IMG/VR virus record: IMGVR_UViG_3300042511_000076
Coordinates: 1 to 26,174 of that record
Source of the DNA: a virus
DNA: 26,174 nt
Reading direction: 5' to 3' (one strand)
Part shown: in pieces, positions 13,855 through 17,801 of the stretch
How positions within the stretch are numbered: position 1 is the first letter of the stretch
How the letters are laid out: each line of letters begins with the position of its first letter
The notes under the pieces: model-generated
What the model saw: the letters and a program-made list of their open reading frames with translations, nothing else
Database searches by the model: none
What the model was told of the DNA's origin: nothing
Translations under genes and position numbers: made by a program

Positions 13855-14214
13855 TTAATGTCTACGTCTACCACCTTCAAATGGAAGAATTGTTAAATTA
13901 AATACTTCATAAATTATTTCAGATGATGTGTATCCTCCAAAATTAAACTCTAAATTTTCATCTTTCTGAAAGTATCTTAAATATAAAGTTGGAAGTCCTT
14001 TGTAAAAATCTAAAAATAAATAATCTGTATAGTTATATATACCATATTTAGCAAATACATCCAATACTTTTTTATTGTGTATTGTGCAGTTTCCATTTTC
14101 TACTTCATAACCTGAAAAATCAAAATGTAAATCTCCTTTTTCCAATCTGATAAAATCAATTACTTCATTTTTACTCATTGTTTTTAATCTTGCCGTTGTC
14201 ATTTTTTCACTCAT
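13855..14214 (-). CDS. AT-rich unknown gene inserted in the replication operon
   Basis: A 119-residue protein (MSEKMTTARLKTMSKNEVID start; aromatic-rich middle KYGIYNYTDYLFLDFYKGLP; end FEGGRRRH). It is rich in Tyr, Phe and Asn with no recognisable motif, membrane segment or Cys. The gene overlaps the primase gene by 8 bp and stops 3 bp before the nuclease gene. Its codons are strongly A/T-ended and visibly more AT-rich than both neighbours, so it looks like a separately acquired cargo gene that was fitted into the operon without breaking coupling. Confidence 0.6.
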   Translation of the reverse strand: MSEKMTTARLKTMSKNEVIDFIRLEKGDLHFDFSGYEVENGNCTIHNKKVLDVFAKYGIYNYTDYLFLDFYKGLPTLYLRYFQKDENLEFNFGGYTSSEIIYEVFNLTILPFEGGRRRH

Positions 14215-16441
14215 TGTCTATTTTTTTAACCCATTTATAAATACATTCTCTTGATACATCTAATAGATCAGCCACACTGACCTTGTTTAGTTTTTTGTTA
14301 GCCTGGTACATCACCTTGAACTTGTCAAATTTACTCTTACCTGGATCGTTTTTAATTACATCTTTTAGCTCTCTTTTTTCAGCTGATTCTATCTTAACTT
14401 TTTTACTCATATTGATAAAATAGTGGGACAGTTTCTCAGCTCTCAACATAGAAGGCTCCATTAGAGTGCCGTAAAAATACTCTCCTGGTTGATCGTATGC
14501 CCACAAAGAATTGATTAACATAGCGAACCTTGGGATGTAGCTCTTTTGTTTAGGCAGCATTGACTTCATATACTCATTCTCAGCATCACTGTTTTGCATC
14601 TCAGTTATCTGATTAAAGATTCGAGTCCATTGTTGCTTAGATGCCTTGGTCATAGATACCACTAATGGCTCAATGTCATCCTCCATGTTATACTTAACCC
14701 ACTTCATTTTTACCTCTTCAAAAAACTTGACTATATAGGCATCATACCATACTGATGTTGATACATCCATCTCATTCTCATTATAAGATTCCACAAACAA
14801 GTCAGGAAATGATATCAACATCCTATCTGTAAATCCATTTTCTTTGTTCTCTTCTGTATTAAAGGCATCAAATATTGTCGGCTGTATACCACCAAGCACT
14901 GGTATATGTGGCTTGTCAACAAATGAACTCTTAGCAGTCTTCCTGTTCATGCTCACAGCCTTACCACTCCAGCAGGAGAGCCAGAACTCAAGGTCGGAAC
15001 CTGCTCTATACTTGTTCATATCCTTAAACCATCCTGCCAGCTCATCCTTGAACACCCCTACTGAGTTTTTATTCTCTTCATGTAGGTCAACCAATGCCTC
15101 AAGTGTAATATCATTCACTATAAATTGAGTCTTTTTAGGCTTCCTTACCTCTTCTGAATGCTCTTTCTCTTGCTTATCTTTCTTCTCATACTCAACCCAC
15201 TTAGCATACTCCTTGATATACCGTTTGATGTGGGTGTTGTTTACAGATTCAAGGGGTCTTATTATCTGGTTGATGCTTGGAGTCTTACCTATACCTGCCT
15301 TACCTACCAATGAGATCCATAAGGTGCCAGTCTCAAGCCATCCTTTCTTGACCTCTACCTTTAATGAGTTACCTACTATCACTGACAGCATCCACATAAA
15401 GGCACAGCCCATGTAGTCTATTGATAAGCCTAATGTGTGGGCAGACTCTAAGATAAAGTGCTGTATATTCTCTGGATAGATGTCAATAGGAAAGGTTAAC
15501 TTACTCACATCTACCTTTGGCTTGTCATCCAGCTCTATCTGTGGTACTCTACGAGATCCAAATCCTTTATCATATAGGTCATTGGCGGCTTGTTTAAAGT
15601 CTCCAAAGTGATACTTGTGAGCGTATACAGCAAATGGACTAAGTAACTTCTCAGCTGGATACTGTGTGCCTGTACTAAAGAGATACATACATCCACTATC
15701 CTTGTACACATAACCTGAGTGAGGTGATTCAGCTCCATGTCTACGTACAATATAGCTCTTAGTAGTGTTCCTTACAATAGTAAACTCATCACTGATAAGG
15801 TCAATAGTGTTATTTTTTGAGTTGTAGTCATCCCAAGGAGTGACCTCATCCTCATTAGTGGAGTATTGTTTCTTAGTTGGTTTGTCAAGGTTGACCTCAT
15901 CAATGTAGTTGTATGTCTTAGATATTGACCACAGTATCTCCCTCTCTTCCTCTGTGATATACTTGATATCATGATACTCATTATCTCCATGGAAGTTGCC
16001 ATATAGAATGAATTGACCACCTACTCCCCTGGTCTCAATGATAGCCTCTTTCATGCCTTGTAGCTTGGCTATCTTGGTATTGCCTTGCACCTTTGTACAC
16101 TTGTAGATGATGTGATATCCATCTCTCATAGTCTTAGCTATGACAAACTTATAATCGAACTCAGAGATGTTATCTCGTAGAAAGGAAATGTACTCATTCC
16201 ACCAGGCTAACTTCTCTGGAAGGGATGAGAATACTTTAAGATCTATATCAATGCACTCAATGTCATTAACACCTGAACGGCATCCATACAATGGTGCTGT
16301 AAGTTGGTCAATCTCATCATGAGTCTTGCATGGTTTGGATGTCCATTTGCTCTCAATAGGTTTCTTAGTAGCATCACAAGGAATGATACTATAGCCTTGG
16401 GAGGCAAGTTTTTTTAAATAATCTTTTGTTATCATACTCAT
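14207..16441 (-). CDS. Primase-polymerase / DUF3987-type helicase fusion
   Basis: A 744-residue replication protein that would make primers and unwind the phage DNA. Residues 1-190 are a prim-pol domain: DID at 65-67 in IECIDIDLK, the His in DGYHIIYK (107-114), and ETRGVGGQ (136-143). A linker with the AVYAHKYHFGDFKQAANDLY segment follows (271-290). A DUF3987-type P-loop ATPase lies at about 318-560, with Walker A GKAGIGKT at 380-387 and an acidic FKDE at 464-467. The last 30 residues (VSVADLLDVSRECIYKWVKK) form a helix-turn-helix. Its ATG overlaps the TGA of the HNH gene. It is the first core gene after the candidate origin. Confidence 0.85.
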   Translation of the reverse strand: MSMITKDYLKKLASQGYSIIPCDATKKPIESKWTSKPCKTHDEIDQLTAPLYGCRSGVNDIECIDIDLKVFSSLPEKLAWWNEYISFLRDNISEFDYKFVIAKTMRDGYHIIYKCTKVQGNTKIAKLQGMKEAIIETRGVGGQFILYGNFHGDNEYHDIKYITEEEREILWSISKTYNYIDEVNLDKPTKKQYSTNEDEVTPWDDYNSKNNTIDLISDEFTIVRNTTKSYIVRRHGAESPHSGYVYKDSGCMYLFSTGTQYPAEKLLSPFAVYAHKYHFGDFKQAANDLYDKGFGSRRVPQIELDDKPKVDVSKLTFPIDIYPENIQHFILESAHTLGLSIDYMGCAFMWMLSVIVGNSLKVEVKKGWLETGTLWISLVGKAGIGKTPSINQIIRPLESVNNTHIKRYIKEYAKWVEYEKKDKQEKEHSEEVRKPKKTQFIVNDITLEALVDLHEENKNSVGVFKDELAGWFKDMNKYRAGSDLEFWLSCWSGKAVSMNRKTAKSSFVDKPHIPVLGGIQPTIFDAFNTEENKENGFTDRMLISFPDLFVESYNENEMDVSTSVWYDAYIVKFFEEVKMKWVKYNMEDDIEPLVVSMTKASKQQWTRIFNQITEMQNSDAENEYMKSMLPKQKSYIPRFAMLINSLWAYDQPGEYFYGTLMEPSMLRAEKLSHYFINMSKKVKIESAEKRELKDVIKNDPGKSKFDKFKVMYQANKKLNKVSVADLLDVSRECIYKWVKKIDNE

Positions 16442-16920
16442 AGCGTTGCTAATCTATTCTGATATGCTTGACTCGCTTCTTGTTCATTTACAAAACGACC
16501 TAAAAAATTAAGTTTTCCATTTATACGAATCTGTGATTTCCATTTATATTCTCGTTTATCCCAACAAACACCAACATATTTAGATGAATATTTACAATGT
16601 GATTTTAAAGAATTTTCTTTTTGAGTTATGATTTGTAAATTATCTACTCTATTATCTAACTGATTATTATTTATATGATCAACTACTAATTTCATCCCAC
16701 TTGGTATATGATTTAAAAAACATATTGCTACTAATTTATGAACTTTAGTTGTTTTACATATATTGTTTTTGCTAATATTAACGTGTAAATATCCTCTGCT
16801 ATCTATTGCAGGGTTTAAAATTTTTTTTCTATTATATTTCAAACTTTTTACCCTACCTAAATTAGATACTTCATATAATCCTTCATAACCAATTACATCC
16901 TTCCAAATTTCTTTTTTCAT
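16438..16920 (-). CDS. HNH homing endonuclease (NUMOD4-HNH-AP2-like)
   Basis: A 160-residue free-standing endonuclease. Residues 4-28 are a NUMOD4 module (EIWKDVIGYEGLYEVSNLGR). Residues about 60-100 are an HNH core with VHKLVAICFLNH and VVDHINNNQLDNRVDNLQII. Residues about 112-155 resemble an AP2/ERF-type DNA-binding motif (SSKYVGVCWDKREYKWKSQI, FLGRFVNEQEASQAY). Such genes spread by cutting cognate DNA. The gene is markedly AT-rich compared with the primase gene, yet its TGA overlaps the primase ATG (ATGA), so it has become the first gene of the replication operon. An inverted repeat lies in its leader. Confidence 0.88.
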   Translation of the reverse strand: MKKEIWKDVIGYEGLYEVSNLGRVKSLKYNRKKILNPAIDSRGYLHVNISKNNICKTTKVHKLVAICFLNHIPSGMKLVVDHINNNQLDNRVDNLQIITQKENSLKSHCKYSSKYVGVCWDKREYKWKSQIRINGKLNFLGRFVNEQEASQAYQNRLATL

Positions 16921-16962
16921 TTCTAAAAAATTAAGTATAAAAAAAACCCTGTAAATCCTGTG

Positions 16963-17023
16963 CGTCTCACTTCACGTTCATTACAGAGTTTTAATAACTT
17001 CTTTAGTTCTATTGCGTGAGACG
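16963..17023. repeat. 8-bp inverted repeat framing the HNH gene leader
   Basis: CGTCTCAC at 16963-16970 is the exact inverse complement of GTGAGACG at 17016-17023, 45 bp apart. A smaller inner hairpin AACT-n5-AGTT lies between. It could be a two-site operator just downstream of the predicted promoter or a folded mRNA leader. Confidence 0.5.
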
Positions 17024-17032
17024 GAACAAGTA

Positions 17033-17060
17033 CAAATATAATCATTATTCTAATACCAAA
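17033..17060 (-). promoter_or_regulatory. Candidate promoter for the HNH-primase operon
   Basis: On the minus strand TATATTTG (17033-17040) fits the Bacteroidota -7 consensus exactly, with TTTG at 17057-17060. The spacing of 16 bp is shorter than the usual 19-21, so confidence is limited. A start near 17026 would give a leader of about 105 nt containing the inverted repeat. Confidence 0.4.
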
Positions 17061-17094
17061 CATAATTTTTAAAAAATAAAGTTTATTATTATCA

Positions 17095-17364
17095 ACTGTC
17101 AACTTACTGTCAACTAATTTGTAAAAGTTGACACTCGAGTGTGTACGGAGTTGACAGTAAAATCTTAGTATTTACAAGGGATACAGAGCTTTTTTAGTGT
17201 AAACTCCTGATTTTTTTAAAAAAGTACATTTTTGATGAGGTAAAAAAATAATTTATTTCCTACTGTAAACTTGTACACTGTGTACACTTTGACTGTAAGT
17301 AACTGATATGTAATATTTTAGCTGTGTAAACCACTGTAAACTACTGTCAACTCAAGTTTACACC
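17095..17364. repeat. Iteron-like array of ACTGT(C/A)AACT; candidate replication origin
   Basis: This 270-bp gene-free stretch carries many copies of a 10-bp element. Exact direct copies are at 17095-17104, 17106-17115 (11-bp spacing), 17262-17271, 17333-17342 and 17343-17352 (head to tail). An exact inverted copy is at 17149-17158, and partial ones are at 17126-17133, 17196-17205 and 17355-17364. A perfect 12-bp palindrome, ACACTCGAGTGT, lies at 17131-17142, and two TGTACA sites at 17272-17286. AT-rich blocks (17041-17092 and 17206-17255) could melt. The array is bordered by a DnaA domain IV-like gene and the primase operon. An origin is the best reading; a multi-site operator is the alternative. 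No coding frame is apparent in 16921-17366. Confidence 0.65.
17131..17142. repeat. 12-bp perfect palindrome ACACTCGAGTGT
   Basis: A perfect dyad between two inverted iteron-like elements in the candidate origin; a likely site for a dimeric DNA-binding protein. Confidence 0.5.
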
Positions 17365-17372
17365 ACAAAAAA

Positions 17373-17397
17373 ACCCCCAGCCAATCAAGGAGGGGGT
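17373..17397 (-). terminator. Strong terminator after the early operon
   Basis: A stem ACCCCC (17373-17378) / GGGGGT (17392-17397), with possible extra CC/GG pairs inside the loop. On the minus strand it is followed by seven T residues (17367-17373). The plus strand also has a short T-rich tail (CTTTT), so it may work both ways. It separates the early operon from the iteron array. Confidence 0.8.
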
Positions 17398-17429
17398 CTT
17401 TTCGGATAATCAATCAGGTAAAAGCGTTG

Positions 17430-17801
17430 CTAAGGTACTAATAAATATTCATTATTTAATATTCTTTCTTTTATTCTTGTTAAATCTGTCGTGTTGTATG
17501 CATTGAGTATCTCATTAAAGATGTCCCTCTTGATCTCCACCATAGGCTGGAAGTAGTCTATCTCAGGCTTAATGTGATAGAGGTAGATGTTATCATTGTG
17601 AGTCATGAAGTGCTTATGTAAGGAGATAGCATGCAGGATGGTAGCATGAGTTCTATTGAACACATCAGCTATCTGTTGTGATGTCATGCCTTGCTTGTGC
17701 AGTAGATAAGCCAGATACGACCTTTTGTAGGAAAATTCTCTGTGCCGTCTGGGTGAGTCAAGGTTATGCTCCTTGATGTAGTTAATTATTTCTGTTGTCA
17801 T
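17430..17801 (-). CDS. DnaA domain IV-like DNA-binding protein
   Basis: A 123-residue protein. Residues about 20-66 (RSYLAYLLHKQGMTSQQIAD, VFNRTHATILHAISLH) strongly resemble the DNA-binding domain IV of DnaA, where the recognition helix carries RDHTTVLHA and the preceding helix ends IGxxFxxR. The AAA+ ATPase part of DnaA is absent and the C-terminal half is a unique acidic helical region. It is the last gene of the early operon and lies 33 bp from the terminator that borders the candidate origin. It could act as origin binder, as an autoregulator, or as a decoy for host DnaA sites. I saw no clear copy of the classic DnaA box in the array. Confidence 0.65.
   Translation of the reverse strand: MTTEIINYIKEHNLDSPRRHREFSYKRSYLAYLLHKQGMTSQQIADVFNRTHATILHAISLHKHFMTHNDNIYLYHIKPEIDYFQPMVEIKRDIFNEILNAYNTTDLTRIKERILNNEYLLVP

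Follow-up and report, generated by a model that had tools for sequence, protein, structure and literature searches.

The window, that is, the whole stretch of 26,174 bases analysed here, is a phage record whose genes are encoded by the minus strand. An array of short repeats lies between the gene for a DnaA-like protein and the operon of a primase-helicase (Table 1). The primase-helicase has no sequence relatives among the solved structures in the PDB. By fold comparison, its AEP domain was best matched among PDB entries by pRN1 ORF904 (1ro0, E 6.5e-6), and its AAA+ part is close in fold to the MCM/E1 helicases. Secondary-structure prediction for the C-terminus gave three helices (residues 704-714, 720-726 and 731-743), the last of which, the recognition helix, carries R731, E732 and K736. 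Among annotated phages, only partial matches of less than 60% identity were found, and these carry no origin annotation.

Table 1. Features of the array and its neighbourhood in the window
Feature	Position	Strand	Support
Primase-helicase (744 aa) with AEP prim-pol at the N-terminus, DUF3987 AAA+ helicase-like domain and HTH at the C-terminus; proposed initiator, binding the origin	14207-16441	-	
C-terminal three-helix HTH, residues 704-743	14213-14332	-	Predicted secondary structure and covariation
HNH endonuclease with NUMOD4; insertion separating the array from the primase gene	16438-16920	-	
Second AT-rich block, primase side of array	17060-17092		
Two head-to-tail iterons ACTGTCAACT, arm B	17095-17104, 17106-17115	+	
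Two inverted iterons, arm B: AGTGTCAACT (17126-17135), ACTGTCAACT (17149-17158)	17126-17158	-	
12-bp palindrome ACACTCGAGTGT	about 17131-17142		
Non-iteron core element TCTGTATCCCTTGTAAATACTAAGAT, conserved	17162-17187	-	
Lone iteron AGTGTAAACT, core on one side, AT-rich block on the other	17196-17205	+	
AT-rich block, candidate unwinding element	17206-17260		
Arm A: eight TGT(A/C)(A/C)AC sites	17262-17362		
Terminator hairpin of DnaA-like gene	17368-17404	-	z -5.2, no shuffle equally stable
DnaA-like protein, 123 aa, DnaA domain IV HTH only	17430-17801	-	Bac_DnaA_C 4e-9

An earlier note, made from the sequence alone, described the stretch with the repeats as gene-free and as bounded by a terminator on one side and by the replication operon on the other. 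The first statement is accurate save for a 59-codon ORF (16923-17102), which runs into the edge of the array and is unlikely to be a gene. As to the flanks, the terminator of the leftward DnaA-like gene does bound the array; it was seen by RNA folding, its loop exceeding the limit of a simple terminator scan. The other neighbour, however, is an HNH homing endonuclease gene standing ahead of the primase gene, an insertion found in the window and in only four relatives from the first contig scan.

Two leader elements were observed near these genes. The leader before the inserted HNH gene (window 16921-17030; at the same place in the relative L033) contains an inverted repeat whose arms differ by compensatory changes, the window having CGTCTCAC..GTGAGACG and L033 GGTCTGAC..GTCAGACC; the window leader gave no Rfam match. 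The leader of the primase operon, found in more than 50 relatives (for instance L008:2190-2297) and replaced in the window by the HNH gene, holds, in this order, GGGGTTGTCGGAGGCATCCACTTAAAAGG, an arm, CCTTTCCCC and the complementary arm, which is present once or twice, its second copy abutting the start codon. Since the arm pairs covary (CACGCT/AGCGTG, ACACTTG/CAAGTGT, GCTTGC/GCAAGC, CACTGTT/AACAGTG and TCTCGTT/AACGAGA), the sequences suggest a translational RNA switch; no Rfam family was matched by this leader, and the MFE of the one version folded was not unusual.

By window-wide count, six exact copies of ACTGTMAACT, five on the plus and one on the minus strand as the earlier note had it, were detected at 17095-17104, 17106-17115, 17149-17158 (minus), 17262-17271, 17333-17342 and 17343-17352, all within 258 bp (17095-17352), and none elsewhere in the 26,174 bases. 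The partial copies reported beside them are also present. Allowing up to one mismatch, 14 matches were found window-wide against 5.9 expected (maximum in 100 shuffles, 12), of which 8 fall within the array. The core TGT(A/C)(A/C)AC occurs at 13 sites within 266 bp (17097-17362) and at 25 sites across the remaining 25.9 kb or so. The short repeats are thus clustered in one region of the replicon, as in iteron-type origins. The two pairs noted as head to tail are real, with spacings of 11 and 10, and the palindrome and both AT-rich blocks were likewise found in place. In arm A the sites start at 17264, 17272, 17280 (minus), 17281, 17325, 17335, 17345 and 17356 (minus), two of them overlapping within the palindrome GTGTACAC. 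No Rfam family was matched at the array.

To follow the array among relatives, viral contigs were scanned six times using the primase-helicase and its diverged relatives as queries, which yielded several hundred loci; 180 unique primase-helicase loci were kept, drawn from the first four scans. Arrays were then searched blindly as clustered 7-mers, no motif being supplied. The strongest cluster adjoins the primase-helicase gene in nearly all of the 180 loci, and a usable array abutting this gene was obtained for 163, each with 5-21 repeats and usually 6-16. Five loci (L066, L067, L070, L078 and L082) gave no array above shuffled sequence. The spelling of the repeat differs by lineage: TGTAAAC, TGTAAAG, TGTAACA, TGTAACC, TGTGAAA, TGTGCAA, TGTGTAA and TGGGACA were found, and further TGCGACA, TTTAAAC, TTTGAAC, ATTGAAC and others. 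Bacterial genome assemblies gave three matches, two of them in Bacteroidota bins and the third in a bin labelled Sphingomonadaceae, which suggests Bacteroidota as the hosts of this phage family. Unrelated tandem repeats were seen in two relatives, AGCGTTGGATAA in about 21 copies at about -1280 to -770 relative to the primase in L153, and a CCTTAGAGGTTAGC-like unit in 13 copies at about +4880 in L022.

Besides the iterons, a second, non-repeat element with a consensus of about TCTGAAACCCTTATAAACAYTRA is present as a single copy amid the iterons in about half of the arrays. Of 64 origins, 17 contain this core element in its exact 14-mer form, where random pieces gave 1.3 and shuffles 0.1, and in 31 of the 64 the score exceeded the null maximum; the window element scored 24.6 against a null maximum of 13.4. 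Because it spans lineages with unlike iterons and with arrays on either side of the gene, the element fits an origin core rather than the operator of one gene. Its orientation is opposite in close relatives (window 17162-17187; L010, L041), which may bear on the direction of replication. The array regions lie on average 6.9 GC points below their own loci and are lower in 156 of 163, AT-richness that counts as weak evidence because intergenic DNA is generally AT-rich. The GC skew of the window, a fragment of the genome, had no turning point.

These features bear on the reading of the array as an operator, through which the primase-helicase or another regulator would control its own replication operon while replication starts elsewhere. 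In the clade of the window the array does immediately precede a sequence that resembles a Bacteroidota-type promoter and would serve the primase operon, and TTGACA-like repeats can mimic -35 boxes. The array is, however, upstream of the primase-helicase gene in 105 and downstream in 58 of the 163 loci, and in those 58 it cannot be the operator of the primase gene, since it lies behind it. On a tree of the primase-helicase built without its HTH, the array has changed side four times; its side was accordingly rejected as evidence for an operator. Thirteen sites, arranged as two arms on either side of AT-rich DNA and the conserved core, are also more than an operator needs. As judged from the sequences, the core element, the AT-rich DNA and the four side changes favour a replication origin over a simple operator. 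We therefore hold the operator reading to be unlikely, although autoregulation may come on top of origin function.

The reader of the array was sought by covariation. Motifs were derived from the arrays with an EM procedure and aligned with each other from DNA alone, and 737 alignment columns of the 744-aa primase-helicase were scanned blindly against each motif base in 49 clusters, using adjusted mutual information (AMI). Base 2 was best paired with residue 731 (AMI 0.74; next column, 0.38), base 4 with residue 732 (0.30; next, 0.22), and bases 6 and 7 with residue 736 (0.38 and 0.63; next, 0.16 and 0.24), which was also paired with base 8 (0.26). The recognition helix was thus top-ranked for five of seven repeat bases, while bases 3 and 5 had no partner column in the HTH. 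Residues 731, 732 and 736 sit where the predicted last helix begins, and recognition helices contact the major groove. Among 153 loci, R731 occurred with G2 in 115 of 115, L, V, I or T731 with T2 in 33 of 33, R732 with G4 in 30 of 30, K736 with C7 in 69 of 69 and R736 with C6 in 21 of 21.

The influence of common descent was assessed with independent pairs, using a tree built without the HTH. Pairs going the expected way outnumbered opposite ones by 9.4 to 0 for R732 and G4 (p 0.004), 8.8 to 0 for K736 and C7 (p 0.004) and 7.8 to 0 for R736 and C6 (p 0.008); for R731 and G2 the count was 5 to 0, base 2 reaching only p 0.06 phylogenetically. Ancestry alone would not single out the columns of the recognition helix, because one and the same history underlies all 737 columns.

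With the rules fixed, they were put to the test on the loci of two further scans and on a genome-bin fragment. Among 47 new loci, 11 were unparseable, four carried residues that the rules do not cover and one lacked an array; with L288 added, 32 were scorable, and the rules matched 26 of these, where 5000 permutations gave 8.1 on average and 16 at most. The six misses agree partially, as in L365 (TTGCAAC against the predicted TTNANNC), or in L316, where the core is correct and was cut by the 7-mer frame. Two residue combinations new to the training set were predicted correctly, SVQSIYNY (VQ..N) of L334 with TTTAAAG and SLRTIYRF (LR..R) of L193, a locus held out owing to its automated orientation, with TTTGACA.

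Exceptions to the code were also noted. Four near-identical loci (L032, L042, L045 and L046) have a differing C-terminus with N736 and yet a TGTAAAC array, and look like cases of recent HTH exchange with the array unchanged; they were not in the 77-row tree, since their core is more than 93% identical to others. In these four and in L047, the last 50 or so residues of the primase-helicase look to have been exchanged recently beside an unchanged array, which makes them a natural test of the tolerance of the code. In L197, CG is found in place of CA. K732 accompanies either G4 (19 loci) or A4 (6 loci), and K731 is not predictive of the base.

These findings strongly support, at the level of sequence comparison, the C-terminal HTH of the primase-helicase as the reader of the array, one of the two readers that the earlier note had put forward. 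Since the spelling of the repeat follows three residues of this enzyme in well over 100 related phages, it is probably the enzyme itself that locates the start site. The candidate iteron-type origin proposed there likewise draws support from its conservation and architecture and from the protein-DNA covariation, and we consider it likely that the array is the replication origin of the phage and that its reader is the phage's own primase-helicase.

The other proposed reader was the DnaA-like protein, which through its DnaA domain IV might read the array and recruit the replisome or host DnaA. Its family binds short origin sites, and its gene adjoins the array in about half of the loci: among 153 array loci, the fetched DNA contained it in 76, and in 77 it was not found. 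By Pfam, Bac_DnaA_C was absent from five records of 32.7-34.3 kb (L066, L076, L078, L080 and L095), of which L080 and L095, genomes of 33-34 kb, show an array without a detected DnaA-like gene; absence is not proven for each locus, because the Pfam model also misses the divergent copy in L052. In the 76 loci with the gene, no column of the DnaA-like protein exceeded an AMI of 0.44 with any motif position, the best columns lying outside its own recognition helix, whereas residues 731 and 736 of the primase-helicase gave 0.85 and 0.65. In this smaller subset certain other columns of the primase equal or exceed 732 for base 4, as expected with fewer lineages. L021 combines a primase-helicase 99% identical to that of the window and the window's motif with a DnaA-like protein of only 39% identity, the recognition helix of which resembles that of L029, a locus with a different array. 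The protein, tried as reader with its conserved DnaA-like H residue, was rejected on these three grounds: the covariation, the half of arrays without the gene, and L021. It matches domain IV only, and the repeats do not covary with it. The DnaA-like protein is probably not the reader of the array, and we regard the contrary reading as very improbable. Such a protein, with DnaA domain IV only and no AAA+ domain, adjoins the putative origin in about half of the family.

The DnaA box likewise begins with TGT; the repeats here are not DnaA boxes, and the earlier note had remarked that the motif differs from the classic one. A reading by host DnaA, or a role of the array in packaging or partition, with common ancestry as the source of the covariation, is hardly credible: TGTTTATAA within the conserved core does resemble a DnaA box, but enrichment of TTATNNACA is weak (30 of 64 origins against 19 shuffled and 17 random pieces), so that host DnaA boxes were rejected as the explanation, and the repeats differ from one lineage to the next along with three HTH residues, a pattern seen on independent branches; shared ancestry would not have selected the columns of these residues among 737.

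For the primase-helicase as initiator, we propose the following mechanism. The C-terminal HTH of the 744-aa protein would bind each TGT(C/A)AACT repeat, R731 reading the G of TGT, E732 accepting A or C at base 4, and K736 fixing the bases around position 7 (C); the HTH domain or the full protein would then prefer a TGTCAACT duplex over TTTCAACT. Bound in many copies on the two arms, the protein may bring its AAA+ helicase domain onto the DNA and set its orientation at the AT-rich block and conserved core that lie between the arms, where the duplex would open, and the fused AEP domain would lay the first primers. In this model, the fusion of AEP primase and AAA+ domain is the make-up of a self-sufficient initiator, helicase activity of DUF3987 being assumed.

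The helicase of P4 alpha is of the SF3 type. The window protein is unlike P4 alpha in having an AEP prim-pol, a DUF3987 AAA+ domain and a plain HTH; Prim-Pol and DUF3987 were found in it and TOPRIM was not, and a sequence relation to P4 alpha was undetectable. It is like P4 alpha in holding primase, helicase (activity of DUF3987 again assumed) and C-terminal DNA-binding domain in one chain. According to PMC4234260, which cites Ziegelin and Lanka 1995 and Yeo 2002, P4 alpha unites in one protein a primase, a hexameric helicase and a C-terminal domain binding the repeats of its own origin; the same source gives its primase as bacterial-type (TOPRIM) and its origin-binding domain as a C-terminal winged helix. 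SaPI Rep and SCCmec Cch2 are initiator helicases whose C-terminal domain recognises iterons, and in SaPIs the origin sits immediately downstream of the gene for the helicase (PMC7581432). They share with our proposal the recognition of iterons by the C-terminal domain of the initiator and differ in having separate helicase and primase proteins, other repeats and other helicase families. The archaeal plasmid protein pRN1 ORF904 is alike in joining AEP prim-pol, helicase and C-terminal DNA-binding domain, but the pRN1 origin is a 100-bp stem-loop without iterons, its helicase is of SF3 and its DNA-binding domain a winged helix (PMC4234260). The PrimQH and All3500 AEP families have the same general domain make-up, kinship being judged on make-up alone; they combine DUF3987 with a C-terminal WH, for which origin recognition was speculated in a 2018 AEP survey that identified no origins, repeats or specificity residues (PMC5862659).

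Because P4 alpha, SaPI Rep and SCCmec Cch2 bind origin repeats by their C-terminal domains, the mechanism proposed here is, by analogy, of a known kind, with a different primase, helicase and HTH. The supposition that the binder may be new thus holds in that no member of the family has been studied, and not for its mode of action, which resembles that of these three proteins. In the literature searched, which included few subscription journals, nothing was found that matched this set of domains, this layout of the origin, the core element or the residue-base code.

On balance, we lean toward the view that this family uses a natural modular origin code, in which three HTH residues would set the repeat base by base, so that specificity is predictable, has repeatedly changed and separates the replication of co-infecting relatives. 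Origins and their readers are, to our knowledge, unknown for most phages; here, both may be named from sequence alone for a large environmental phage family. We know of few initiators with specificity explained residue by residue, and this family offers dozens of natural specificity variants, including residue combinations predicted before inspection. The 2018 suggestion that C-terminal domains of mobile-element primase-helicases recognise origins (PMC5862659) thereby becomes directly testable, and quantitative, for this phage family.
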